Shown here piece after piece: positions 12,267 through 48,686 of a stretch of 64,000 nt of DNA. The notes beneath the pieces are model-generated. The model saw nothing but the letters and a program-made list of their open reading frames with translations. It did no database searches and had not been told where the DNA came from. Each line of letters opens with the position of its first letter. The stretch's first letter is position 1. The translations under genes and the position numbers were made by a program. Location: the NCBI RefSeq assembly GCF_001854225.1, contig NZ_CP015208.1:1302001-1366000 (forward strand), written 5' to 3'. This DNA comes from Candidatus Rhodoluna planktonica (GTDB taxonomy: Bacteria; Actinomycetota; Actinomycetes; Actinomycetales; Microbacteriaceae).

Positions 12267-13049
12267 ATGAATTCTCTTTCGTCCATCTTGGACAACAACC
12301 AGTTCAACCTTGTTTACAACATCCTCTCCTTGGGTATTGCAAGCATGGTTTTCACCTCAATCTTCTTGTTCGTTGCCCGCGAGCGAGTTGCACCTCGTTA
12401 CCGCATGGCGGTAATGATTTCGGGCACAGTTACCGCAATCGCCGCCTACCACTACTTCAGAATGTTTGACTCGTTCAACCACGCATTCGCCGGCGCCGAA
12501 GGTAACCCAGACCTATACAACGTTGGCTACCGCTACGTTGACTGGTTCCTCACAGTGCCACTGCTATTGGTTGAGACCGTCGCCGTTTTGGCTTTGGCAC
12601 GCGCAGCCCAGCGTTCAATGTTGAACCGCTTGGTTCCAGCAGCTGCAGCCATGATTGCACTTGGTTACCCAGGTGACGCAAAGCTAGACATCTTTGGCAT
12701 TGCACCTTCGGTTTGGGGTCTACTTTCGACCTTGCCATTCCTTTACATCCTTTACGTGCTGTTCATCGAGCTTGGCAAGAGCCTTGAGCGTCAGTCAGCA
12801 GAGGTTCGCAAGAAGATCTCGACTCTACGTCTAGTGCTTCTAGCAACCTGGGGTGTCTACCCAATCTCGTTCATCTTCAACATGAACTCAACCGGATTCG
12901 ACCCAGCAGGTTTCGTCGCTCGCGAAGTTGGTTACAGCATCGCCGACATCCTTGCTAAGTGTCTATTCGGTCTAATCATCTTCTCGATCGCACGTATCAA
13001 GTCGGCCGAAGATGACGCAGAATTCGCTAAGAACGAGTTCCGCGACTAA
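12267..13049 (+). CDS. actR: Actinorhodopsin, light-driven proton pump
   Basis: Seven-helix retinal protein exporting protons in light. In the 260-residue sequence the helix C motif RYVDWFLTVPLLLVE gives Arg89, proton acceptor Asp92, Thr96 and donor Glu103, the D-T-E set of proton pumps. His62 is the likely partner of Asp92. The Schiff-base lysine is K231 in SIADILAKCLFG. Leu100 sits at the spectral-tuning position that favours green light in proteorhodopsins. Glycine 151 in SVWGLLSTLPF is a candidate for the opening that admits a carotenoid antenna in xanthorhodopsin relatives, but this needs alignment. It is monocistronic, with its own terminator; retinal would come from Blh encoded at about 31 kb. 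Confidence 0.96.
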   Translation: MNSLSSILDNNQFNLVYNILSLGIASMVFTSIFLFVARERVAPRYRMAVMISGTVTAIAAYHYFRMFDSFNHAFAGAEGNPDLYNVGYRYVDWFLTVPLLLVETVAVLALARAAQRSMLNRLVPAAAAMIALGYPGDAKLDIFGIAPSVWGLLSTLPFLYILYVLFIELGKSLERQSAEVRKKISTLRLVLLATWGVYPISFIFNMNSTGFDPAGFVAREVGYSIADILAKCLFGLIIFSIARIKSAEDDAEFAKNEFRD

Positions 13050-36905: not shown

Positions 36906-37919
36906 TTGGTGAACCAGTTGAACGAGACAAGCGGTCCTTCCCACAAGACGCGTGTGGCAAGAACTGCATTGGCAGAGCGCAGCCTGTCAATCGACAGGTT
37001 CAGGGGGGTGCTGGTCATCATGATGGTGATCGGCGACTATCTCAGTGGCATCCAGTGGGTTCCAGCTTTTCTAAAACATGCGCCCGATGTCGGGTTTACG
37101 ATTGCCGACACAGTCGCACCAGCGTTCGTTTTTGTGATCGGCTTGAATTACGGCACATCCTTTAATCGAAGATTCGCCCACGACCCAGTAGCTGCTTACC
37201 GGCATTTCATTGTGCGCTACCTCTCCCTGGTGGGCATTGGTGCAATCATCTCGATCGGTTCCCTAGTGGTGGGTGACACTCCAGGCTGGGGTGTCCTGCT
37301 CTCACTAGGTGTTGCAGGCCTAATCAATTTGATTTTTATCCGCATCCCCACTTGGGGCCGCTTAGTTATTGGCACAATCATGCTGATCGGCTATCAAATT
37401 CTCTTGGATGCGTCCATGTTGCAAAGTGTGCTGGAAGGATCACACGGTGGCCCGTTCGGTGCAATTTCGTGGGCCGCACTGTTGGTGCTTTCAACCGCGG
37501 TTGCTGACATTTGGCGCAAGGATCAAAAGCAATACCTTGTGGCAATCTCAACTTTGACTGTGGCGGCAATCGTTTCATCGGTTGTTGTTCCGGTAAGCAA
37601 ACATCGAGTTTCGCTTAGTTTTGTTTTGCTCACTTTGGCAATCAGTGCAGCCGCATTACTAATTTCCGAATTGATCTCACAAAACTATCCGGACAAACGC
37701 GGTTTTCTATGCTGGTGGGGTGAGAACGCTCTTGCGCTCTACATTTTGCACCTTCTGATTCTTGCTGTCGTGGTCTTGCCACCAATTGACTGGTGGTATG
37801 TCAACGTGCCGTGGTCGGTTGCCCTTGCGCAACTGGTTGCGATTCTCACCTTCATGACACTGCTGGCAATCTGGATGAAGCGTTGGCGTCAAAATGCCAG
37901 ATCGAGAAAAAGCCGATGA
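36906..37919 (+). CDS. Multi-pass membrane protein, heparan-glucosaminide acetyltransferase/DUF1624-like
   Basis: A protein of up to 337 residues with about ten hydrophobic helices. The opening RSLSIDRFRGVLVIMMVIGDYL and the following ADTVAPAFVFVIGLNYG resemble the DUF1624/heparan-alpha-glucosaminide N-acetyltransferase group of membrane acyltransferases, which transfer acetyl groups across the membrane; the substrate is unknown. The start is uncertain: TTG 36906, GTG 36909 or a later GTG. The stop overlaps the ATG of a small HhH gene (ATGA), so the two are coupled. Confidence 0.7.
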   Translation: MVNQLNETSGPSHKTRVARTALAERSLSIDRFRGVLVIMMVIGDYLSGIQWVPAFLKHAPDVGFTIADTVAPAFVFVIGLNYGTSFNRRFAHDPVAAYRHFIVRYLSLVGIGAIISIGSLVVGDTPGWGVLLSLGVAGLINLIFIRIPTWGRLVIGTIMLIGYQILLDASMLQSVLEGSHGGPFGAISWAALLVLSTAVADIWRKDQKQYLVAISTLTVAAIVSSVVVPVSKHRVSLSFVLLTLAISAAALLISELISQNYPDKRGFLCWWGENALALYILHLLILAVVVLPPIDWWYVNVPWSVALAQLVAILTFMTLLAIWMKRWRQNARSRKSR

Positions 37920-38131
37920 TCGACTACGAAAAGTTCGACAGTGAGTGGCGCAAGATTGGGCTTAGCGGCCCCGCCAGAAGAGCACTAGTAGACGCCAAGC
38001 TTTATAAAGTTTCAGACCTGCGCAAAATTACTCTTGAAGAACTTCAATCGATGCATGGCTTAGGCAAATCTTCGATTGCTCGCATTCGGCAAATTATGGC
38101 TGCTAAGAAAATCAGTTTTCTTCGAAGTTAA
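37916..38131 (+). CDS. Small helix-hairpin-helix protein
   Basis: A 71-residue protein starting at ATG 37916, overlapping the membrane-protein stop by four bases. The segment LSGPARRALVDAKLYKVSDLRKIT, then EELQSMHGLGKSSIARIRQIM, resembles two HhH motifs and recalls the C-terminal domain of RNA polymerase alpha. A nucleic-acid-binding role is likely; the partner is unknown. It lies directly outside the displaced tRNA fragment that bounds the heme cluster. Confidence 0.75.
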   Translation: MIDYEKFDSEWRKIGLSGPARRALVDAKLYKVSDLRKITLEELQSMHGLGKSSIARIRQIMAAKKISFLRS

Positions 38132-38142
38132 ATTTGTGCAAA

Positions 38143-38177
38143 GAAAAACCCGGCACTCTCAATTGAGAACCGGGGTT
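38143..38177 (-). terminator. Terminator downstream of the displaced tRNA-Arg fragment
   Basis: On the minus strand AACCCCGG, an inner palindrome TCTCAATTGAGA, CCGGGTT and then TTTTCTTTG: a hairpin with T-tract. It follows the tRNA 3' fragment, as a tRNA terminator would. It probably now ends the hemE-hemH operon and may also stop the converging HhH gene. Confidence 0.75.
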
Positions 38178-38217
38178 GGCGCGCTTGGAGGGAATCGAAC
38201 CCCCAACCTTCTGATCC
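38176..38217 (-). repeat. Displaced 3' half of tRNA-Arg (candidate attachment site, copy 1)
   Basis: 42 bp identical, except for one base in the T-loop, to 48610-48651 of the intact tRNA-Arg gene, in the same orientation, 10434 bp away. It covers CCA, acceptor 3' strand, T-arm and anticodon-stem 3' strand up to the last anticodon base. Beyond it the sequence diverges completely and cannot form a tRNA. This is the usual core of a tyrosine-recombinase att site. Confidence 0.88.
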
Positions 38218-38307
38218 TCAGTTATGTTGTAATACCTCTATATAAAGCCTGAGTGGCAATGTGCCCCAGTATTTTATTAGTCAAGCCACCCTTTGCATAT
38301 ATGCCCA

Positions 38308-38348
38308 TTTCCGTCCGTTTCCGTCCATTGAACGGAATATAAACGGAA
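38308..38348. repeat. Tandem and inverted short repeats beside the tRNA fragment
   Basis: Two direct copies of TTTCCGTCC (38308 and 38318) are followed by two copies of AACGGAA (38331 and 38342), which are close to the reverse complement of the first motif. They lie in the 140-bp gene-free strip between the displaced tRNA end and the 3' end of hemH. Their arrangement resembles arm-type integrase sites, but no integrase gene is present. Confidence 0.55.
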
Positions 38349-38358
38349 CCTTGAGGGT

Positions 38359-39456
38359 TTATCCAATAACAGGTAACTCCCTGCGCAGGTTTGGGCAGCA
38401 ATTCATCGCACATTTGTCTGACCACGGGCCAAGTGCCGAAAGTGCAGCTTTTTCTCCACCCGCGAGGCGCTCAAGAACCAAATCTGCAATGCCATCGACG
38501 AACTCCGGAGCAACGCCTGAAGTTACAACACGAGCGAACTTTAGTTCGCGTTCATCCGCCGTTTCTTTGGCTTCGTTGTCGAGATCCCAAATAACCTCGA
38601 CGTGGTCACTCACGAAACCAATTGGAACAACAATCACACCTTTTGCCCCAGCATCAGCAGCATCGTTAATTGCATCATTTACGTCTGGCTCAAGCCAAGG
38701 CACTGATGGCGAACCAGAACGTGACTGATAGACAAGCGACCAGTCTGGCAGGGTCTCGCCCAGCTTCAGTTCGACAATATTCATCGTCACCTCAGCAGCT
38801 GCTAAGTGTTGGGCCGCATAGGCACCGCCTTCTGCGTCGATTTTGGCAAACTCTTCTCGTCGAGATTCTGGGCCTGAAGTTGTGCCCATTGCAGTCGGGA
38901 TTGAGTGTGTCGCAAACATAATCTTTATGTCTGAGGTGCCCAGGCCACTTTCGCGCATTTTGCGAATCTGGTCTGCAAGATCATCGGCAATTGGGGCGAT
39001 GAATCCAGGGTGGTCGAAATAGTGACGAACTTTGTCAATGTTCAGTTTGCCGACCAAGCCAGTCTCTTCAAGCGCACCCGCAAGATTCTCTCGATACTGG
39101 CGGCAACCCGAATATGAGGAGTATGCGCTGGTGACCCAAGCAAGCACATTGCGGTGGCCGTCTTCATACATTTGTTTCACAACGTCAGCAAAAAACGGAT
39201 GTGAATTTCTGTTGCCCCAATAAATCGGAACGTCGATTCCGCGCTTTGGAAAGTGCTCACGCATCGCAGCCAACAGAGCTCGGTTCTGTTCGTTGATTGG
39301 GCTCACTCCACCTAGAGCCAGATAGTGGTGCGAAACCTCTTCGAGTCTTTCGCGGGGCACGCCGCGACCGGCAGTGACTCGCTCAAGATATGGCATCACC
39401 TCTTCTGGCCCTTCTGGGCCACCGAAAGAGGTTAGGAGAATTGCGTCGTATGTCAT
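38359..39456 (-). CDS. hemH: Coproporphyrin ferrochelatase (CpfC/HemH)
   Basis: Inserts iron into coproporphyrin III in the actinobacterial heme route. The 365-residue protein has the ferrochelatase opening (ILLTSFGGPEGPEEV), the HSIPTAM histidine region and the catalytic-side motif GFVSDHVEVIWDLDNEA. Cysteines at 118 and, near the C terminus, 349, 353 and 354 (DKCAMNCCP) are placed like the [2Fe-2S] ligands of actinobacterial ferrochelatases. Its ATG overlaps the hemQ stop by one base. It is the last gene of the hemE-hemY-hemQ-hemH operon. Confidence 0.95.
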   Translation of the reverse strand: MTYDAILLTSFGGPEGPEEVMPYLERVTAGRGVPRERLEEVSHHYLALGGVSPINEQNRALLAAMREHFPKRGIDVPIYWGNRNSHPFFADVVKQMYEDGHRNVLAWVTSAYSSYSGCRQYRENLAGALEETGLVGKLNIDKVRHYFDHPGFIAPIADDLADQIRKMRESGLGTSDIKIMFATHSIPTAMGTTSGPESRREEFAKIDAEGGAYAAQHLAAAEVTMNIVELKLGETLPDWSLVYQSRSGSPSVPWLEPDVNDAINDAADAGAKGVIVVPIGFVSDHVEVIWDLDNEAKETADERELKFARVVTSGVAPEFVDGIADLVLERLAGGEKAALSALGPWSDKCAMNCCPNLRRELPVIG

Positions 39457-40139
39457 TAGAAATCCTTAATTAGGTTTGCTGTGTCAATTAGTCGGCCGGT
39501 GAAAAATGGAAGTTCCTCGCGCACGTGCATGCGAGCTTTTGTATATCTAAGGTCGCGCATCATGTCGACGATTTCGTGAAGTTCGTTTGATTCGAGCGCC
39601 AAGAGCCATTCATAATCACCGAGGGCAAATGCCGCAACGGTGCTTGAGGTGATTCCCTCGTATTTGTGACCAGCCACTCCGTGCTCAATCAGCATTTCCC
39701 GTCGCTCTTGCTCTGGAATTAGATACCAGTCATATGAGCGAACAAACGGATACATGCAAAGCCACTTTTTAGGCTCTTTGCCAAGCATGAATCCGGGAAC
39801 GTGCTGCCGATTGAACTCAGCTGGCCTGTGCAAACCCATTCCTGCCCAGTGAGACTTGAAGGCGGTGCCGAATTTCAGCTGGCTGAATTCTCGAAGTGCC
39901 TGTTGAACCAACTCAGCTTCACTGGCGTGCAGCCAAAGCAATAGTTCGCTGTCGCCCCTAAAGCCACGGATGTCATAGGCCCCGCGAAAGGTGATGTCTC
40001 TCTTCTCGAGACTTGCAAGCCAATCCTGGTATTCGTTGGCCGCCTGCTCACCCGCGTCGGGAGTTTCGATTAATTTGAATGCGCTCCAATTTGTATATCG
40101 AATCGTGTGGTTGATTGCGTCAAATTTTGACTGATTCAT
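39456..40139 (-). CDS. hemQ: Coproheme decarboxylase (ChdC/HemQ)
   Basis: Final step of the coproporphyrin-dependent pathway: two decarboxylations of coproheme to heme b. The 227-residue protein shows PFVRSYDWYLIPEQERREM with the probable catalytic Tyr136, then IEHGVAGHKY with the likely proximal heme ligand His153. It overlaps the 3' end of hemY by 20 bases and abuts hemH. Its presence shows the pathway is not the protoporphyrin-dependent one. Confidence 0.94.
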   Translation of the reverse strand: MNQSKFDAINHTIRYTNWSAFKLIETPDAGEQAANEYQDWLASLEKRDITFRGAYDIRGFRGDSELLLWLHASEAELVQQALREFSQLKFGTAFKSHWAGMGLHRPAEFNRQHVPGFMLGKEPKKWLCMYPFVRSYDWYLIPEQERREMLIEHGVAGHKYEGITSSTVAAFALGDYEWLLALESNELHEIVDMMRDLRYTKARMHVREELPFFTGRLIDTANLIKDF

Positions 40140-41463
40140 TGCCCATCCTCTCGTGGTGATCTCTGATGATGCCTAAAAGCCCGTTGCCGCTGATGAAGCT
40201 GCCGCACACCTCAACCCCGAGATTCTCCGCATGGGTCTGGAGTTGTGCTGAAAAGTTTTTGACTTCTTCGCTTGGTCGATAGAGTGCGCTCGGCCATCGG
40301 ACAGTGCGCATCGATTTGAATCTGATGTCTGAGACGCCATAAATATCTGAGGCCTCGAGCCTCACACGTTCGAACAATTCCTCATCGGCCACGCCAATCG
40401 CCGATTCGCGTCGAGCCCTGCCGAGACTGAAGCGAATGAGATGTTCGTTGCTCGCCAAGTCGTTCGAAATCCATTTCCATTTTGCATTTAAGTGGGTTGT
40501 CGCCTTGGTCATATAGCCGCTGCTTGCGCTGACTAGGGCGCCGCTACCCAGTGGCAATCCATTTAATTGATTTGATTCAACCGAAGCGATGACGAGAGTC
40601 GAATCAACCTGAGCTTCGAGAGAATCGTCAGATGGCAATTTGAACAACTTTTGGGCAGCAACAAGTGATGTCGCCAAAGTGATTTTCTGATTTGAGAACT
40701 CATCGAGATCTGAGACCACTCGATCGAATTCGAAGTGAACGCCCATCTGTTTTAGGCGGTTGGTCATTTCTTCAACCAATCGGAAAACGCCGCCTTCATA
40801 ACCGGCGACAGCCGAACCGGGCCTATCAACATTGCCGCGCAATGCAGAGGCAGCTTCAGTAAGCGAACCGGTTTCTTGAAAACTGGCAATCAGTGCCGGC
40901 AAGGTTGCACGAACATTGAGATCACGGGCTGAAGATCCGTGAATCCCAGCTATAACTGGGTCAACAAGCTTGTCAACAAATTCTGAACCCAGTCGCAGTT
41001 CTACCAATTGAGCTATGGTCATTGCCGCTAATTCATCTGACTTAGGCGGGCTCACTGAGTCTAGTTTTCTGGCGAGATCTAGTGCCGCTTTCGAGATTAT
41101 TTCGTCCAATTCAACATCGTTCAATGAGGCTGGAATTCCGAAGTATCCGTGTGGAATTTTGTATTTTTGCTCGCTGGAATTCACAATTCGAGCATCATTT
41201 CTAGACGGATAGGCGACCTTGTCACCAACGCCCAGATCGTTGACGAGTCGCTCGAAGCCAGCACCCGCAATCGAAAAAGATTCGGCACCCGAGTCAACCT
41301 TGATCGATCCTTTGTTGATTGGCATTTCGACTTGCTGAATTAGCCCGCCGGCACTAGTTGCCGAATCAAAAACTGCGACTGTTTCACCGCGACCCACTGC
41401 ACGAAAGGCGGCGAGCAAACCCGAGAACCCGGCACCGATTACAACGCGATCGAATTTATTCAT
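40120..41463 (-). CDS. hemY: Coproporphyrinogen III oxidase, FAD-dependent (CgoX/HemY)
   Basis: Oxidises coproporphyrinogen III to coproporphyrin III using FAD. From the ATG at 41463 the protein has 447 residues, beginning with MNKFDRVVIGAGFSGLLAAF, a dinucleotide-binding fold, followed by FDSATSAGGLIQQ. The frame is open to 41490, but 41463 gives the family start and falls 4 bp after the hemE stop. The middle has DPVIAGIHGSSARDLNVRATLP, typical of HemY/HemG-like oxidases. Confidence 0.92.
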   Translation of the reverse strand: MNKFDRVVIGAGFSGLLAAFRAVGRGETVAVFDSATSAGGLIQQVEMPINKGSIKVDSGAESFSIAGAGFERLVNDLGVGDKVAYPSRNDARIVNSSEQKYKIPHGYFGIPASLNDVELDEIISKAALDLARKLDSVSPPKSDELAAMTIAQLVELRLGSEFVDKLVDPVIAGIHGSSARDLNVRATLPALIASFQETGSLTEAASALRGNVDRPGSAVAGYEGGVFRLVEEMTNRLKQMGVHFEFDRVVSDLDEFSNQKITLATSLVAAQKLFKLPSDDSLEAQVDSTLVIASVESNQLNGLPLGSGALVSASSGYMTKATTHLNAKWKWISNDLASNEHLIRFSLGRARRESAIGVADEELFERVRLEASDIYGVSDIRFKSMRTVRWPSALYRPSEEVKNFSAQLQTHAENLGVEVCGSFISGNGLLGIIRDHHERMGNESVKI

Positions 41464-41467
41464 GGAA

Positions 41468-42547
41468 TCAAGATGTGTGAGCGTGAACAAATTCGACGAT
41501 TTTTGTGAGCACTTCTGGGTTGGTTTCGGCTGGCACTCCGTGCCCGAGGTTCACAACGTGACCAATAGCAGATTCGCCATCCGCTATCACTTCACGAAGG
41601 TGCTGCTCAAGATCAATCCAATCGTCGGTCAATCTATCTGTGTCGATGTTCCCCTGAACTGCCACCTCGCCACCCAGAAGTTCGCTTGCCTCGGCTAGCG
41701 AAGTGGCGCTGTCCACGCCAATTACAGTCGCACCTACTTGATGCATGTCCTTCAGAATCGACTTAGTTCCAACACCAAAATGGATGCGCGGAACCGGCTG
41801 CCCGGTCGAGTCAACGAGCTGCTGAAGCTGGTCGAAAAGACGCTGGGAATATGGCATTGCGAACTCTCGGTATTCAGCTTCGGTCAGGCGGCCTGCCCAG
41901 CTATCAAATACTTGAAGGGCGCTCGCACCAGCCTCAACCTGCGCCACTATGAACTGCGCCGTTACGTCGGCACACCATTTCAAGATTCTTGCCCAGAGTT
42001 CGGGCTCGTTGCGCATCATGCTCCGAGACTTTGGCAAGTCTTTCGACGGGCCGCCTTCAATTAGGTAGGAGGCCAGCGTAAATGGCGCGCCGCCAAACGC
42101 AATAAGTGGCGTTTTGCCAAGTTCCGCGACTAGACGCTCTACAGATTTGACGATTGGCGAGAATGCCTCGACAGGAATTAGTCGGAGTTCCTCAACCTGA
42201 GCCTTGGTTGCAATTGGCCGAGTTATTACTGGACCAACGCCAGCTTTGATATCGACATCGATGCCAGCCAGTTTTAGCGGGATAACAATGTCAGAAAAGA
42301 AAATCGCTGCATCTACATTGTGGCGTCTCACCGGCTGCAAGGTAATTTCCACTACCAGGTCAGGATTTAGGCAGCTATCCAACATCGGGATTCCCTCACG
42401 GAGCTTGCGATACTCGGGCAGCGATCTGCCGGCCTGGCGCATAAACCAAATTGGCAGCGGTGATGTTCGGCGCCCACGAAGGTTTGAAATCAACGCCGAA
42501 TTATCGGTCAGTCCAGCGTTCAATGGATGCAGAGGGCTTAGAGTCAC
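41468..42547 (-). CDS. hemE: Uroporphyrinogen decarboxylase
   Basis: Removes four carboxyl groups from uroporphyrinogen III to give coproporphyrinogen III. The 359-residue protein has the signature PIWFMRQAGRSLPEYR near residue 32, AIFFSDIVIPLKLAGID in the active site and IHFGVGTKSILKDM. The start is a GTG at 42547, facing hemA across 72 bp that contain a strong palindrome. It is first in the four-gene minus-strand operon. Confidence 0.95.
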   Translation of the reverse strand: MTLSPLHPLNAGLTDNSALISNLRGRRTSPLPIWFMRQAGRSLPEYRKLREGIPMLDSCLNPDLVVEITLQPVRRHNVDAAIFFSDIVIPLKLAGIDVDIKAGVGPVITRPIATKAQVEELRLIPVEAFSPIVKSVERLVAELGKTPLIAFGGAPFTLASYLIEGGPSKDLPKSRSMMRNEPELWARILKWCADVTAQFIVAQVEAGASALQVFDSWAGRLTEAEYREFAMPYSQRLFDQLQQLVDSTGQPVPRIHFGVGTKSILKDMHQVGATVIGVDSATSLAEASELLGGEVAVQGNIDTDRLTDDWIDLEQHLREVIADGESAIGHVVNLGHGVPAETNPEVLTKIVEFVHAHTS

Positions 42548-42580
42548 GACACAATTATCAAAAGAACTACAGTCAAAAAA

Positions 42581-42595
42581 CTGACACAGTGTCAG
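42581..42595. promoter_or_regulatory. Perfect palindrome in the hemE-hemA divergent promoter
   Basis: CTGACACAGTGTCAG is a perfect 7+1+7 palindrome, the size and shape of a TetR-family operator. On the plus strand CTGACA (42581-42586) is a good -35 box, 18 bp before TGTTAT (42605-42610) as -10 box. Transcription would then start near 42617, almost at the hemA start codon. A regulator bound here could block both operons. The TetR gene at the end of the hemA operon is the natural candidate. Confidence 0.75.
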
Positions 42596-42619
42596 GTAGG
42601 CACTTGTTATTTTTTGAGT

Positions 42620-43894
42620 GTGGCTCTTGTTTACCTAGGAACAGATTTTCGCGACACCGCTTTAGCCAGCCTCGAGCATTTCGAGCGTTCAGCTGATGAG
42701 ATCCTCGTAGCCCTCAAATCTGATGGCTCTCCCCTGGATGGTGTCGCAGTTCTGGCTACCTGCAACCGCTTTGAAGTCTATTTCGAAGCCTCAGAGTTTC
42801 ATTCATCCGTTGATTTCGCTAGCGAAGTAATCGCCAATAAATTGAATAAGACTACTGACGAGATTAAAGGCACTCTCAAAGTTCTGTATGCAGATGCTGT
42901 GCCAAAGCATTTGTTTTCTGTGGCAGCCGGCCTTAGCTCGATGATTGTCGGCGAACAAGAAATAGCAGGGCAGGTAAAACGCTCGCTTGGAAAAGCTCAC
43001 CGCTTGGGTTTTTCGTCTAAGGCTTTAAATCAACTGTTTCAAAAGGCTTCGTCAGTGGCAAAACTTGTTACTAACACAACGAACTTAGGGGCCTCTGGTC
43101 GTTCAGTTATCACAACTGCGCTAGAGCTTGCCGACAAAAAATTGCAAGGACTTTCAGGCAAAACCGCTTTGTTGGTTGGCACCGGAGCCTATTCTCGAGT
43201 TTCGCTAGCCGCTATGGAACGACAAGGTGTTGAGAAAATTTATGTTTTCTCGAGAGCTGGGCGTGCTGAAAAATTTGCCGAGACTCACCACACGCAGCCG
43301 ATATCGAAGGCTGATTTGGTCGAAACTATGGCAAAGGTTGATCTCGTTGTTTGTGCGAGCGGAAACACTGATCCCGCTATAGATTTGCAACTTTCGAAAG
43401 AGGTGGCCGACCTTCGTGCCAGAAGAGGGATCAGGCAAGATCTAATTTTGATCGATGTGGCCTTAAGTCGCGATGTAGAGCCCTTGGTCGGGTCAGTAGC
43501 CGGGATGTTTGTCATCGACCTTGAGGAACTAAAGCAACATGCACCCAAGGAACATCGCGAAACCATAAAGAGCGCGGAGGCAATTGTGAATGCTGCTGCG
43601 GCTGAATTCGAAGAACAGTCGGCGTCGAATTCCGTCGACCTAGTCTTGGCCGCACTGCATGCTCACGTAGGGATTTGGGTGGACCGAGAAGTTGACGCCG
43701 TCCGCAGAAAATCTGGAGATGATGCAGCTGTGGATGTTGAGAAATCACTTCGAAGAGTGGCCAACGCTCTGCTTCACGCCCCTTCAGTCAAGGCCAAAGA
43801 GTTGGCTATGGCGGGCAACCATGAGGACTACATTCGCGCAGTGAAATTGCTCTTTGACATTCAGATTGGTGATCGGTCAGATGAAGAAAACTAA
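42620..43894 (+). CDS. hemA: Glutamyl-tRNA reductase
   Basis: First step of C5 heme synthesis: reduces glutamyl-tRNA to glutamate-1-semialdehyde. The protein (424 residues from GTG 42620) has the catalytic cysteine in VAVLATCNRFEVYFE, the GLSSMIVGEQEIAGQVK segment and an NADPH-binding fold (ALLVGTGAYSRV). The frame is also open from TTG 42614. A -10 box ends at about 42610, and no ribosome site is visible, so a leaderless mRNA starting at GTG is plausible. It heads the hemA-C-D-B-L operon. Confidence 0.93.
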   Translation: MALVYLGTDFRDTALASLEHFERSADEILVALKSDGSPLDGVAVLATCNRFEVYFEASEFHSSVDFASEVIANKLNKTTDEIKGTLKVLYADAVPKHLFSVAAGLSSMIVGEQEIAGQVKRSLGKAHRLGFSSKALNQLFQKASSVAKLVTNTTNLGASGRSVITTALELADKKLQGLSGKTALLVGTGAYSRVSLAAMERQGVEKIYVFSRAGRAEKFAETHHTQPISKADLVETMAKVDLVVCASGNTDPAIDLQLSKEVADLRARRGIRQDLILIDVALSRDVEPLVGSVAGMFVIDLEELKQHAPKEHRETIKSAEAIVNAAAAEFEEQSASNSVDLVLAALHAHVGIWVDREVDAVRRKSGDDAAVDVEKSLRRVANALLHAPSVKAKELAMAGNHEDYIRAVKLLFDIQIGDRSDEEN

Positions 43895-44813
43895 ATTGCG
43901 TGTAGGAACTCGAGGCAGCCTGCTGGCCCTAACCCAAACGCGAATTTTTACTGGCGAGCTAACGCGACTTCACCCAGAGATTGAGATTGAAGAGGTTCTT
44001 ATTCAAACTCATGGCGATTTGAGCACTGAACCACTTAGTGAGTCCAAAACTCCCGGTGTGTTTGTCAATGCGCTGCGAGACGCATTGTTAAATTTCCAAG
44101 TTGATTTCATAGTCCATTCAATGAAAGACCTTCCGGCAAATCCGCATCCGGCGATTGCCACTGCGTGCGTGCCAAGTCGTCAAGATTCTCGTGACGGTTT
44201 AGTTAGCAAAAACAATCTTCGATTAGACGAGCTCCCATCGGGCGCAATTGTTGGCACCTCATCCCCTAGGCGCGCGGCAAGCATCCGTCAGAGTCGGCCC
44301 GACCTAGTCATTGCCGATATTCGCGGAAACATCGACACCCGAATCGCCAAGGTTCAGGGCGGAGAATATGATGCCACGCTGCTTGCTATGGCCGGCCTGA
44401 ACCGGATCGACAAATCTGATGCTGTCTGCGAAATATTTGAGACCGAGAATTTTGTGCCTGCCGCTGGTCAGGGGGCCCTATCAATTGAATGTCGATGGGG
44501 CGATTCAGACTTGATATCGCTTCTCGCAGAGCTTGATGACGCAGAGACACGTCTAGTCACAACTGCTGAACGATCGGTTCTGAGTGGGCTAGAGGCAGGC
44601 TGCGCAACGGCCATTGGCGCGAGCGCTAAATATGTTGATGGCACCTTAATCCTGATGACAGAACTAGCCGTCGAGAGCACTGGCGAATCTCAACTTGTTA
44701 AAAGAAGTGCCCACTCGTCACTTGACGATATTGAAGCAGCAACGAGGCTTGGACATGAGGCGGCGAAGGAATTGCTAGGCGGCGACTTGGCAAGGAAAGC
44801 GGCCTGGAAATGA
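43881..44813 (+). CDS. hemC: Porphobilinogen deaminase (hydroxymethylbilane synthase)
   Basis: Joins four porphobilinogens into hydroxymethylbilane. From ATG 43881 the protein has 310 residues, starting KKTKLRVGTRGSLLALTQT. Visible signatures are HSMKDLPANPHP, GTSSPRRAASIRQSRPD, IRGNIDTRIAKV and, for the dipyrromethane cofactor, the cysteine in LEAGCATAIGA. The start overlaps the end of hemA by 14 bases; a longer frame to 43854 is less likely. It overlaps hemD by four bases. Confidence 0.94.
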   Translation: MKKTKLRVGTRGSLLALTQTRIFTGELTRLHPEIEIEEVLIQTHGDLSTEPLSESKTPGVFVNALRDALLNFQVDFIVHSMKDLPANPHPAIATACVPSRQDSRDGLVSKNNLRLDELPSGAIVGTSSPRRAASIRQSRPDLVIADIRGNIDTRIAKVQGGEYDATLLAMAGLNRIDKSDAVCEIFETENFVPAAGQGALSIECRWGDSDLISLLAELDDAETRLVTTAERSVLSGLEAGCATAIGASAKYVDGTLILMTELAVESTGESQLVKRSAHSSLDDIEAATRLGHEAAKELLGGDLARKAAWK

Positions 44814-45568
44814 CCGTCCTATTGATTCGCGCAAATAGGAATGACATTGATGCTCAACATTTGGCTGCCCTGGGAATTAGTTCGCGAGTCGACCCATACC
44901 TTCGAATCTCATCGGTCAAGAACATAGCCGGTGCGATGCGCATGCTCAGTGAGCTCGACGATGCTAAGAAATCAACCGCGCGACCAACTTGGCTAGCAAT
45001 TACCTCCACGAATGCGCTGTCTTATTTTGATGACCTGTTGCCGGAACACGAGCTTGATCGAATCTTTGATAAAAACAGCAATGTGAAGTTTGCTGCGATT
45101 GGCAACCAAACCAGCTCACAGTTGATTGCTAGAGGTGCAACCGAGGTTTTGCAGCCTGTTAATGCGAATTCAGAGTCTCTGGCAGACCTAATGTGCAAAG
45201 GCACGGCGGGTACGGTCGTTATTCCCAGCGGCTCAATAGCTATGGAAACCCTTGCTAATCGTTTAGCGGATAGCGGATTCAAGATCGTATCCGAGGTCGT
45301 TTATGAGACGAGTTTTGTATCTGAATCCCCAGTCTCGGTTGACGAAGTTCGTGACGGCATGTTCGACGCTGTCTTGTTGAGGTCGCCTAGTGCAGCACGT
45401 GCATTCGAACAATTCAACCCAAATGCTTCGGTGAAAGTAATTTGCGCTGGTGAGGCGACGGCCATTCAAGCCCAAAAGCTTGGACTAAACGTGGCGGCTG
45501 TTTCTGCCGGGCCAGACCCGCAATTAGTTGCCCAAACAATCGCAAAAGTAATAGGAAGTCAAAAGTGA
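44810..45568 (+). CDS. hemD: Uroporphyrinogen-III synthase
   Basis: Closes and inverts hydroxymethylbilane to uroporphyrinogen III. The 252-residue protein is poorly conserved, as is normal for HemD, but the two-domain pattern (WLAITSTNALSYF early; DAVLLRSPSAARAFEQF later) and the position between hemC and hemB, overlapping each by four bases, make the call secure. No methyltransferase domain is fused. Confidence 0.88.
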   Translation: MTVLLIRANRNDIDAQHLAALGISSRVDPYLRISSVKNIAGAMRMLSELDDAKKSTARPTWLAITSTNALSYFDDLLPEHELDRIFDKNSNVKFAAIGNQTSSQLIARGATEVLQPVNANSESLADLMCKGTAGTVVIPSGSIAMETLANRLADSGFKIVSEVVYETSFVSESPVSVDEVRDGMFDAVLLRSPSAARAFEQFNPNASVKVICAGEATAIQAQKLGLNVAAVSAGPDPQLVAQTIAKVIGSQK

Positions 45569-46539
45569 TTGAACGCCCACGCAGACTGAGAGTCAACGAA
45601 GCGATGAGAGATCTTGTTGCCGATGTAACCCTCGAGCCAAAGAACTTGATGTTACCGATTTTTGTAAAGGAAGGTCTCGAGGCACCTCGATCCATTGAAG
45701 GCATGGCAGATGTTCTGCAACATACAGAACAATCATTTTTGGACGTTCTCGATGACGCTATTGGTGCAGGCATTAAGTCGGTCATGTTTTTTGCCGTGCC
45801 AAAAATTAGAGATGCCAAAGGCAGCCAAGCAACAGCAGAGAATGGGATCTTGAGCCGAGTAATTAGATCAGCTCGTGCACACGTGGGTAATGATTTGGTT
45901 CTAGTTGCAGATCTATGTCTAGATGAATTTACCGATCATGGGCACTGCGGTGTGCTTGATAATCAGGGCTTAATTGACAACGATTCAACACTGATTCGCT
46001 ATGCCGATATGGGCCTAGTTTTAGCAGCTGCGGGGGCCGATCTGCTCGGCACCAGCGGCATGATGGATGGACAGGTTGCTTCAATTCGTAAAGCCCTTGA
46101 CTTGCGCGGCTTTGAGAACACCGGCATTCTCGCCTACTCGGCCAAATACGCCTCGGGTTTTTATGGTCCATTTCGAAATGCGGTTGAATCTGCACTCGAT
46201 GGTGATCGAAAGACGTATCAGCAGGATTACCGACGCACTCGCGAGGGTCTGGCTGAAGTGGAACTCGATTTAGCAGAGGGGGCGGATCTCATCATGGTCA
46301 AGCCAGCGCTGGTTTACCTAGATGTAATCGCAAAGGCAGCCGCTGTAAGCAATAGGCCGGTTGCGGCCTACCTGGTTTCTGGTGAATACGCGATGGTAGA
46401 AGCTTCCGCCAAGGCTGGAGTCATTGACAGAGAGTTAGCGATTTTCGAAATCCTATATTCCATTCGACGGGCTGGGGCTCAGATCATTTGCACATACTGG
46501 GCACTTGAATTCGCTAAAAAACTGAAAGAGCAACGATGA
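45565..46539 (+). CDS. hemB: Porphobilinogen synthase (delta-aminolevulinate dehydratase)
   Basis: Condenses two aminolevulinates to porphobilinogen. The 324-residue protein has the two active lysines K194 (YSAKYASGFYGPF) and K246 (IMVKPALVYLD). The metal loop reads DLCLDEFTDHGHCG: C118 and C128 are present, but the middle zinc cysteine is Asp120, unlike the three-cysteine zinc form (CxC...C). It may use a mixed or magnesium-type site. The start is GTG, overlapping hemD by four bases; hemL overlaps its end by four. Confidence 0.94.
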   Translation: MIERPRRLRVNEAMRDLVADVTLEPKNLMLPIFVKEGLEAPRSIEGMADVLQHTEQSFLDVLDDAIGAGIKSVMFFAVPKIRDAKGSQATAENGILSRVIRSARAHVGNDLVLVADLCLDEFTDHGHCGVLDNQGLIDNDSTLIRYADMGLVLAAAGADLLGTSGMMDGQVASIRKALDLRGFENTGILAYSAKYASGFYGPFRNAVESALDGDRKTYQQDYRRTREGLAEVELDLAEGADLIMVKPALVYLDVIAKAAAVSNRPVAAYLVSGEYAMVEASAKAGVIDRELAIFEILYSIRRAGAQIICTYWALEFAKKLKEQR

Positions 46540-47837
46540 GCAACACTCTTGGATCTGAGCAGTGGCACGAGCGTGCCAAGAAACTTATTCCAGGCGGTGT
46601 GAGCTCGCCAGTCAGAGCATTTACGTCAGTTGGCGGAACTCCTCGATACTACGTTCGCGGCGAGGGTTCAAAAATTTGGGACATCGATGGAAACGAGTAC
46701 GTCGACCTTGTCAACTCTTGGGGACCCATGATTCTTGGACATGCACACCCTCAGGTTGTCTCGAAGGTGTCGCAAGCCGTAGAAAATTCATTTTCATTCG
46801 GAGCTCCTGGGCCAGGCGAGGTTTTGCTTGCTGAGGAAATCAGTCTTCGAGTGCCGGCTTGTGAACGTGTGCGATTTGTTTCAAGCGGCACCGAGGCGGT
46901 TATGACGGCCGTTCGCCTGGCGAGGGCCGCGACGCATAGGAATTTGATAGTCAAGTTTGCTGGCTGCTACCACGGCCACAGCGATGCCTTGTTGGTTCAG
47001 GCCGGATCAGGAATTGCGACACTCGGCCTGCCAAATTCACCTGGCGTGACCGCGGGTCAGGCGCAAGACACCGTCGTTTTGGAATACAACAATGCGCTGC
47101 AGTTGGAGGAACTTTTTACTGAACGCGGTGAGCAGATTGCTGCAGTTATTACCGAGCCAACGCCAGCCAACATGGGAGTTGTTCCTCCGGAACAAGGTTT
47201 CAACAAACTGATTGCCGATACCGCTCACAAATATGGCGCGTTGATGATTCTCGATGAGGTTATGACCGGTTTTAGAGTTTCAAAAGGTGGATGGTGGGGC
47301 AAGTTTGCTGCCACTGAAGACTGGACTCCCGACATCTTCACATTTGGAAAGGTTATTGGCGGAGGCATGCCCCTGGCTGCGCTTGGTGGCTCAGCCAAAA
47401 TAATGGAGCTCTTGGCCCCGACTGGTTCGGTCTATCAAGCGGGAACTCTCAGTGGAAACCCGGTTGCAACGGCAGCCGGATTAGCGACGCTAGAACTTTG
47501 TGACGAAAGCCTTTACGACACTCTTGACTTGAGGGCTCGTCAGGTAGGTGAGGGCATATCTGATGCTTTGACGCGAGCAGGTGTCGGCCACAGTTATCAG
47601 ACCGGCGGAAACCTGTTCTCTTTCTTCTTCACTCCAAATCGTGTTAGAAATTTCTCTGAGGCTCAGTTGCAAAATACCGAGGTATTCGCAAAGTTCTTCC
47701 ATTCCTTGCTAGATCAGGGCGTCTCAGTTCCTCCTTCTGCCTATGAGGCATGGTTTGTCTCTGGCGCGATCACAGACCTCGATGTTGAAAGAATTATCGA
47801 GGCTGCTGCGATAGCTGCAAAAGTTGCCGCAAGCTAA
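46536..47837 (+). CDS. hemL: Glutamate-1-semialdehyde 2,1-aminomutase
   Basis: PLP enzyme that makes 5-aminolevulinate from glutamate-1-semialdehyde. The 433-residue protein contains SSGTEAVMTAVRLARAAT for phosphate binding, LDEVMTGFRVSKGGWWG and the PLP lysine K272 in FTFGKVIGGGMPL. It is the last pathway gene in the hemA operon, coupled to hemB by a 4-base overlap. TetR follows 53 bp later on the same strand. Confidence 0.95.
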   Translation: MSNTLGSEQWHERAKKLIPGGVSSPVRAFTSVGGTPRYYVRGEGSKIWDIDGNEYVDLVNSWGPMILGHAHPQVVSKVSQAVENSFSFGAPGPGEVLLAEEISLRVPACERVRFVSSGTEAVMTAVRLARAATHRNLIVKFAGCYHGHSDALLVQAGSGIATLGLPNSPGVTAGQAQDTVVLEYNNALQLEELFTERGEQIAAVITEPTPANMGVVPPEQGFNKLIADTAHKYGALMILDEVMTGFRVSKGGWWGKFAATEDWTPDIFTFGKVIGGGMPLAALGGSAKIMELLAPTGSVYQAGTLSGNPVATAAGLATLELCDESLYDTLDLRARQVGEGISDALTRAGVGHSYQTGGNLFSFFFTPNRVRNFSEAQLQNTEVFAKFFHSLLDQGVSVPPSAYEAWFVSGAITDLDVERIIEAAAIAAKVAAS

Positions 47838-47890
47838 CTCACGTTAGATTCATTGCCGATTCGCGATCGCCGATGTAACCTTTATTGGTT

Positions 47891-48451
47891 ATGGTCACAG
47901 CAAAATCCGATGAGCGCCGAAAGGCGATTTTGCGCGCATCCATAGACCTTGTTTCAGAGCATGGAGCCGAATGGCTGACCATGGCTCGAATAGGTGAGGC
48001 TACGGGCTTATCTCGCTCTGCCATCTATCAATATTTTGAATCCAAAGATCACGTCTTGGGTGAACTATTGATCGATGACATGGCAGATCTAAGTAATGAA
48101 ATAGACCGGATTGTGGCGTCCGTCAATGATCCAATGGAGCAAATTCGAATCTGGATTCACTATTCACTCGCCCACCTTGCGAGTGCAGACCACCTAGTAG
48201 TGCGTGAAATTTCGATGACCCACCTTCGAGAAGAGCAGCGTGGCGAACTAATGGCTATGCACGGGTTCTTCTTGACGACTCTGCACTCACCGCTAATTCA
48301 ACTTGGAGTTTCTGACCCCACGTCTCTAGGAAGCATGATTTTTGGTGCTGTGAACAGTGCGGCCCAGAGAATCTACTCGGGCAAATCTTTTATTCATGAG
48401 GCAGCAACTCTCGAGAAGTTTGTGATTGCGGGCATCGAAGCCGCTATCTAA
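47891..48451 (+). CDS. TetR-family regulator, candidate heme-gene regulator
   Basis: A protein of 186 residues starting at ATG 47891 (TTG 47885 also possible). The N-terminal helix-turn-helix is clear: RRKAILRASIDLVSEHGAEW, then GEATGLSRSAIYQYFESKDH. The C-terminal ligand domain is not assignable. It closes the hemA-hemL transcription unit and precedes a strong terminator, so it may be co-expressed with the heme genes and bind the palindrome between hemE and hemA (inference). Heme or a porphyrin could be the ligand. Confidence 0.85.
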   Translation: MVTAKSDERRKAILRASIDLVSEHGAEWLTMARIGEATGLSRSAIYQYFESKDHVLGELLIDDMADLSNEIDRIVASVNDPMEQIRIWIHYSLAHLASADHLVVREISMTHLREEQRGELMAMHGFFLTTLHSPLIQLGVSDPTSLGSMIFGAVNSAAQRIYSGKSFIHEAATLEKFVIAGIEAAI

Positions 48452-48464
48452 ACCGCATATCTAT

Positions 48465-48502
48465 AAATGAAAAGAGACCCATTTCTGGGTCTCTTTTCAT
48501 TT
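48465..48502 (+). terminator. Strong terminator after the hem-TetR operon
   Basis: AAATGAAAAGAGACCC, loop ATTTCT, GGGTCTCTTTTCATTT: a perfect 16-bp stem 13 bp after the TetR stop, with T-rich 3' arm. Confidence 0.92.
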
Positions 48503-48582
48503 GGTGTGCTTGAACGGGTGAGGTCAAAGGCGGCTCGCGAACAAGCGAGTCGACCGACCGAAGAGTCCCGACAAGCGCAAAA

Positions 48583-48604
48583 AAGCCCCGCGATTGCGGG
48601 GCTT
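48583..48604 (-). terminator. Terminator of tRNA-Arg
   Basis: On the minus strand AAGCCCCGC, loop AATC, GCGGGGCTT, followed by TTTT. It lies a few bases after the tRNA CCA end. Confidence 0.9.
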
Positions 48605-48609
48605 CTTAG

Positions 48610-48651
48610 TTGGCGCGCTTGGAGGGACTCGAACCCCCAACCTTCTGATCC
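48610..48651 (-). repeat. 3' half of intact tRNA-Arg (candidate attachment site, copy 2)
   Basis: The partner of 38176-38217: 41 of 42 bases identical, same orientation. It covers the tRNA from the CCA end to the anticodon. Because this copy is part of a whole tRNA, the element would have entered from the 3' side, carrying a replacement tRNA end. Confidence 0.88.
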
Positions 48652-48686
48652 GTAGTCAGATGCTCTATCCGTTGAGCTACAAGCGC
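48614..48686 (-). tRNA. tRNA-Arg (anticodon ACG)
   Basis: A 73-nt cloverleaf on the minus strand with CCA encoded at 48611-48613. The acceptor stem is GCGCTTG/CAAGCGC, the anticodon arm TCTGA-CTACGGA-TCAGA with anticodon ACG (cgt at 48651-48653), and the T-loop TTCGAGT. It decodes CGN arginine codons, with A34 modified to inosine. It has its own terminator. Confidence 0.97.

Follow-up and report, generated by a model that had tools for sequence, protein, structure and literature searches.

A complete set of heme-synthesis genes on a tRNA-Arg-bounded island in Candidatus Rhodoluna planktonica

The heme gene block and its boundaries

The complete chromosome of Candidatus Rhodoluna planktonica (G000 in our genome labels; 1,424,506 bp; genus Rhodoluna according to the database grouping) carries a 10.4 kb block of nine heme-synthesis (hem) genes and one TetR-family regulator gene, flanked on one side by an intact tRNA-Arg(ACG) gene and on the other by a displaced copy of this tRNA's 3' half in like orientation. 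The block was analyzed within a 64 kb stretch of this chromosome (the window), and all G000 coordinates below are positions in that window. Its features are the following.

37901-38131, plus strand: small helix-hairpin-helix (HhH)-like gene flanking the island on its far side (weak RNA_pol_A_CTD match, below cut-off)
38140-38175, minus strand: tRNA-Arg terminator of the genus type, which here follows the displaced half (scores 15 against the consensus of the genus)
38176-38217, minus strand: displaced tRNA-Arg 3' half, from the anticodon loop to the 3' end; distal island boundary
38218-38358, minus strand: distal end of the element, conserved and holding paired TTCCGTT boxes at 38331-38348 (similarity to congener element ends)
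38359-39456, minus strand: hemH, ferrochelatase (above the NCBIfam cut-off; congener-like phylogeny)
39456-40139, minus strand: hemQ, HemQ_actino heme synthase (above the NCBIfam cut-off)
40120-41490, minus strand: hemY/hemG-type (copro)porphyrinogen oxidase (below the NCBIfam cut-offs; Pfam Amino_oxidase and conserved cluster position)
41468-42547, minus strand: hemE, uroporphyrinogen decarboxylase (above the NCBIfam cut-off)
42614-43894, plus strand: hemA, glutamyl-tRNA reductase (above the NCBIfam cut-off)
43854-44813, plus strand: hemC, hydroxymethylbilane synthase (above the NCBIfam cut-off; TTG start as listed, possibly too early)
44810-45568, plus strand: hemD, uroporphyrinogen-III synthase (below the NCBIfam cut-offs; passes Pfam HEM4, PF02602)
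45565-46539, plus strand: hemB, porphobilinogen synthase (above the NCBIfam cut-off)
46536-47837, plus strand: hemL, glutamate-1-semialdehyde aminomutase (above the NCBIfam cut-off)
47885-48451, plus strand: TetR-family regulator that travels with the hem genes (passes Pfam TetR_N)
48452-48610, no strand assigned: proximal island end containing two terminator-like stems, of which the one nearer the tRNA is unlike the genus type (no homologue among the loci compared)
48611-48686, minus strand: intact tRNA-Arg(ACG) (ARAGORN); proximal island end

The original prediction for this locus had described all nine heme genes and a TetR gene with almost nothing else, and the NCBIfam and Pfam matches bear this out. 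The coproporphyrin-dependent gene set, HemQ included, is complete, with hemY and hemD assigned through Pfam and cluster position, and outside the gene block the repeats enclose only 141 bp on the hemH side and 159 bp on the TetR side. The TetR gene adjoins hemL in 11 clusters of the genus Aurantimicrobium (g80) and of g34, g88, and g51, and no BLAST match to it was found in the hem loci of the Rhodoluna congeners. The hemC and hemD genes are separate in G000, as they are in the g80, g34, g88, and g51 clusters and in two other actinobacterial clusters. Unlike in G000, hemC and hemD both fall on a single open frame in the hem-positive congeners R. lacicola (G006; L079:6114-7790), G017 (L081:27-1748), and G071 (L220:6142-7863).

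The direct tRNA-Arg repeat on which the original prediction rested is confirmed (38175-38217 against 48609-48651; 42/43 identical; E 3e-13) and is the strongest same-strand repeat of the window in a plus-strand self-BLAST, in which the only other pair had an E value of 1e-6. ARAGORN places the right copy in an intact tRNA-Arg(ACG), as had been proposed, and a search of the G000 genome with its own tRNA-Arg region returned two matches, namely the intact gene and the displaced half. The terminator noted behind the left copy proved to be of the genus type described below.

tRNA-Arg(ACG) as an integration site in Rhodoluna

Islands formed by tyrosine integrases at tRNA genes have a duplicated tRNA 3' half, an intact tRNA at one end, the native terminator at the displaced half, and a conserved end with repeated boxes. 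The G000 island has all four: (i) the duplicated 3' half, (ii) the intact tRNA, (iii) the moved terminator, and (iv) the boxed conserved end. It differs from such islands in that it is without an integrase and in that its cargo consists almost entirely of one complete cofactor pathway.

For the terminator, a consensus was drawn by eye from the tRNA-Arg loci of the genus, scores of at least 13 were taken as genus type (500 random segments reached a maximum of 12), and 36 intact copies (35 scorable for length) and 20 displaced copies were scored. A genus-type terminator followed 15 intact copies and 12 of the 20 displaced ones. The scores in G000 were 15 behind the displaced half and 6 behind the intact tRNA-Arg, which is the swap that integration produces, and the same swap was seen in G071, G005, G001, G011, and G021.

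Displaced tRNA-Arg 3' parts were present on the tRNA contig in 13/36 genus genomes, G000 included, a count that is a lower bound because many loci are short or lie at contig ends; all of them are on the 3' side of the gene and on the same strand. The genome of G017 provides the empty site for a 14.1 kb tRNA-Arg element of its near relative G071, with an overlap of 48 bp. The sequence behind the displaced half in G000 matches the sequence behind the G017 tRNA (85% over 79 bp), so that the native post-tRNA sequence now lies behind the displaced half. Within Rhodoluna, tRNA-Arg serves as a hotspot of integration. In G011 and G072 (L087, L090), three and four displaced tRNA-Arg 3' parts follow one another, those of G072 on a contig that holds no intact gene, and these consecutive parts suggest a tandem accumulation of islands.

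The 141 bp beside hemH matched, over 129 bp, the element ends of R. lacicola G006 (92%), G071 (91%), G005 (87%), and G001 (72%), with pairwise alignment giving distal-end identities of 91, 90, 85, and 69%, respectively. All four matching ends adjoin a displaced tRNA-Arg half, and no other match to the distal end was found among the loci compared. This end holds the paired box TTCCGTTTATATTCCGTT, which occurred in 0 of 100 shuffles of the window, and the paired-box pattern was found in 10/360 loci, all of them in G000, G006, G071, G005, and G001. A tyrosine integrase (PF00589 plus PF14659) lies between the tRNA-Arg and the displaced half in G071, G001, and G005, so that the distal end of the G000 island is common to integrase-bearing elements at the same site; in G007, an integrase with the same two domains adjoins the tRNA-Arg. 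These congener elements, together with the empty and occupied sites of G017 and G071, support the reading of the layout as integration at a tRNA, as originally proposed.

Cargo varies within this family. The G071 element also encodes type I restriction genes and a primase-polymerase, and the R. lacicola tRNA-Arg element (L078:7893-15388) carries fatty-acid oxidation genes together with the distal end of the hem island; no PF00589 match was found inside it, and its proximal end shows a repeat of what appears to be a tRNA-Pro piece. A possible link of the distal end to phages, through 21 bases found exactly in two IMG/VR contigs, was dropped as probable chance because both contigs have the same sequence around the match (a gene end before a tail-fibre gene) and no other close copy was present in the stretches examined.

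Distribution, phylogeny, and tRNA setting of the hem genes

Among the 67 searchable Rhodoluna genomes, many of which are incomplete drafts, hemE was present in 5 (4/22 among those at least 90% complete and at most 5% contaminated) and hemH in 4, in keeping with the patchy distribution that had been anticipated. Across the family, hemE occurs in 252/299 sampled genomes. The heme-copper oxidase gene COX1 was found in 62 of the 67 Rhodoluna genomes, including 22/22 of the good ones. Since COX1 is widespread and hemE and hemH are rare, most Rhodoluna appear to need heme that their own genes cannot make. One study (PMC12381374) names Planktophila and Rhodoluna among freshwater bacteria reported to be heme-auxotrophic.

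The hemE product of G000 is 66 to 70% identical to those of Aurantimicrobium vs 61 to 62% to those of its congeners. In a joint tree of seven genes (hemQ, hemE, hemB, hemL, hemC, hemA, and hemY), G000 falls inside Aurantimicrobium with support values of 99 and 100 in the Shimodaira-Hasegawa-like approximate likelihood ratio test (SH-aLRT); this was a quick tree of 25/29 taxa, the four with too few genes being excluded. In an approximately unbiased (AU) test with 20 taxa, a single Rhodoluna hem clade was rejected, its log-likelihood being 287 worse (P = 7e-7). In a serS tree, taken as the reference for kinship, G000 lies inside a fully supported clade of Rhodoluna and g34 entries, separate from Aurantimicrobium. 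The comparison of hem trees with kinship for which the original prediction called thus showed a conflict: the seven hem genes jointly have a foreign phylogeny, hemH being excepted, and the phylogenetic switch lies near the hemQ/hemH border.

The same cargo is found at another tRNA in Aurantimicrobium, where hemE is present in 7/8 genomes. In 6/7 hem-positive genomes of this genus, the hem block stands between an intact tRNA-Phe(GAA) and a displaced 3' half; the distance from the hemH end to the tRNA-Phe is 72 to 74 bp in 5/6 and 1.2 kb in G382, and that from the end of the TetR gene to the displaced half is 134 to 148 bp in 6/6. The orientation of the block is opposite to that in G000, with hemH rather than TetR towards the intact tRNA. 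A hem-less tRNA-Phe site was sought in Aurantimicrobium G354 in 60 kb near serS, and no tRNA-Phe was found there. In g88, the hem cluster of G155 (L214:12083-13303) adjoins tRNA-Phe as in Aurantimicrobium, and no displaced half was found. In the genus g34 (L211:15405-16767; L317:7944-10254), the TetR end of the hem cluster is 0.7 and 1.7 kb from a tRNA-Ser 3' end, with no displaced half in the available sequence. In Pontimonas G118 (L312:995-3421), a tRNA-Met and two displaced 3' parts lie ~20 kb from the hem cluster.

In R. lacicola, the hem genes are of the other type and lie within a tRNA-Ser(GGA) array, where two 22-bp copies of the 3' end of the tRNA enclose them and an integrase remnant adjoins the tRNA. 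In the hem-less sister G029, the flanks are 0.4 kb apart around an intact tRNA-Ser vs 28 kb in R. lacicola. A simple tRNA-Ser insertion of these hem genes was rejected by the order of the pieces, because the native downstream sequence still follows the inner displaced copy and the hem genes lie beyond that copy. We limit the claim to this: hem is present in the tRNA-Ser array of R. lacicola and absent from its sister G029.

A scan of 19 hem-positive genomes of the group for tRNA-half brackets, from which the 3 kb hem contig of G015 was left out, was positive in 8, R. lacicola included. No tRNA bracket was found around the hem genes of G017 and G071, a 7.1 kb stretch between the two G071 loci (L326) lying outside the scan. 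As a control, 0/34 hem loci of other actinobacteria were tRNA-bracketed, and only 3/34 of these stretches (~17 to 21 kb) hold any tRNA gene. The control loci were hand-picked from a larger set and searched at an E limit of 1e-4 vs 0.05 in the main scan; all 8/8 positives would pass 1e-4.

Origin of the island and rival explanations

The G000 island is bounded by tRNA-Arg, has the distal end of an integrase-bearing family, and holds seven hem genes that jointly group with another genus. We consider it very probable that the hem block was acquired horizontally as the cargo of an integrative element targeting tRNA-Arg(ACG), an element that is now an integrase-less relic. An integrase, since lost or acting in trans, would have recombined a hem-carrying element with the anticodon-loop/3' half of the tRNA-Arg. 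The gene set should turn glutamyl-tRNA into heme b via the coproporphyrin-dependent route; the predicted pathway being complete, gain of the island would switch a lineage to heme prototrophy. Today the island is probably fixed because it has no integrase and its proximal end has changed.

Several observations weigh against this interpretation. No integrase was found between the G000 repeats, the only two PF00589 genes of the genome lying hundreds of kb off, and the tRNA-proximal 159 bp match no other element end among the loci compared. The terminator rule is not universal, as 8/20 displaced copies are without the genus type, G006 and G065 have a genus-type terminator behind both kinds of copy, and G080 is reversed. 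A tRNA bracket is missing in 11/19 hem-positive genomes, in two of which the cluster is cut by a contig end. Compared with the flanks, as the original prediction had suggested, the block is not unusual in composition (GC 50.6% vs 50.7 and 52.4% in the flanks; GC at third codon positions 49 vs 53.5), and base composition was rejected as a sign of foreign DNA for want of a clear signal. Likewise, a tRNA-Arg joined directly to the left flank of G000 was not found in any hem-less genome, and the expected empty tRNA-Arg with the HhH gene directly adjoining was not seen: the two are about 5 to 28 kb apart in the eight congener drafts that have both on one contig and far apart in the complete genome of G006. 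Nearest to an empty site is G070, a genome without hem in which the tRNA-Arg is followed by the genus terminator and, ~1.5 kb on, by a homologue of the DUF5009-like gene. Finally, hemH is 82 to 86% identical to its congener counterparts vs 75% to those of Aurantimicrobium and groups with the congeners at moderate support (82/91). This exception to the foreign phylogeny means that the block is not from one source, and the island is therefore a composite. Given the local appearance of hemH and the distal end and an Aurantimicrobium-like remainder, later homologous recombination probably reshaped it, and natural transformation is a possible route both for its entry and for the hemH mosaic.

Recombination of this kind could also have done more than reshape an acquired cargo: an older element without this hem set may have left the displaced half, the hem genes replacing its interior later by homologous recombination or transformation. 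This is a rather unlikely course of events, although it would account for a proximal end unlike those of relatives, for the missing integrase, and for a hemH and distal end that look local beside a foreign remainder. It also fits a report that R. lacicola and A. photophilum undergo natural transformation with double homologous recombination (PMC11577799). However, the hem block alone occupies the space between the ends, and a second genus has the same block bracketed by a different tRNA.

Much less likely still is vertical inheritance, under which the hem cluster was present in the Rhodoluna ancestor and was lost from most lineages, the tRNA fragment being a scar of separate origin. The wide occurrence of hemE in the family and the clustering of the G000 hemH with its congeners would suit such a history, but the seven-gene data reject a single Rhodoluna clade, the TetR gene beside hemL is common to g80, g34, g88, and g51 and not to the congeners, and the supposed scar lies 141 bp from hemH and bears the end common to the element family. 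Partial duplications of tRNAs are known, and the repeat might be such a remnant, or chance, rather than an attachment site; we regard this as extremely improbable, given that the displaced 3' parts in 13/36 genus genomes all lie 3' of the gene on the same strand, and the direct comparison of empty and occupied sites in G017 and G071 refutes it for this site unless the copies in G000 and G071 differ in origin.

Beyond acquisition by G000 as element cargo, we propose tentatively, and with slightly less than even confidence, that an essentially unchanged ten-gene heme cassette of about 10.3 kb is passed as a portable module between planktonic Microbacteriaceae genera: a cargo-only unit that would integrate at tRNA genes (Arg in G000, Phe in Aurantimicrobium, a version in the tRNA-Ser array of R. 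lacicola) with an integrase supplied in trans and would switch lineages between heme auxotrophy and prototrophy. The patchy heme auxotrophy would thereby gain a candidate physical carrier in the form of a bounded element that, by being present or absent, would determine whether cells bearing a heme-copper oxidase can make heme. This suggests that a pathway usually regarded as core is traded among streamlined plankton, and R. lacicola and A. photophilum, as two naturally transformable laboratory species, make the idea testable.

With actinobacterial coproporphyrin-dependent clusters, the island shares the same hem genes with HemQ_actino and the gene order seen in g80, g34, g88, and g51; unlike in those clusters, the G000 genes are on an element, the 34 control loci being without a tRNA bracket. 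Other comparable elements are the Tycheposons of Prochlorococcus, also reported in Methylopumilus/OM43, where hemABEKL is named among the genes of a tRNA-Met-linked island in Methylophilaceae (PMC10872708). They resemble the G000 island as tRNA-linked islands with metabolic cargo in genome-streamlined plankton; the islands described there are large and contain a conserved part as well as a xerD-type recombinase. In contrast, no tyrosine recombinase gene was found in the G000 island, which is a complete 10.4 kb pathway bounded exactly by a tRNA and its displaced half, and the hem islands are patchy across species and use different tRNAs in different genera. In a limited literature search, with Kim et al. 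2021 outside it, we came across no account of an actinobacterial tRNA island that holds a complete hem set. Elsewhere in the window, at 12267-13049, an open reading frame encodes a putative microbial rhodopsin.

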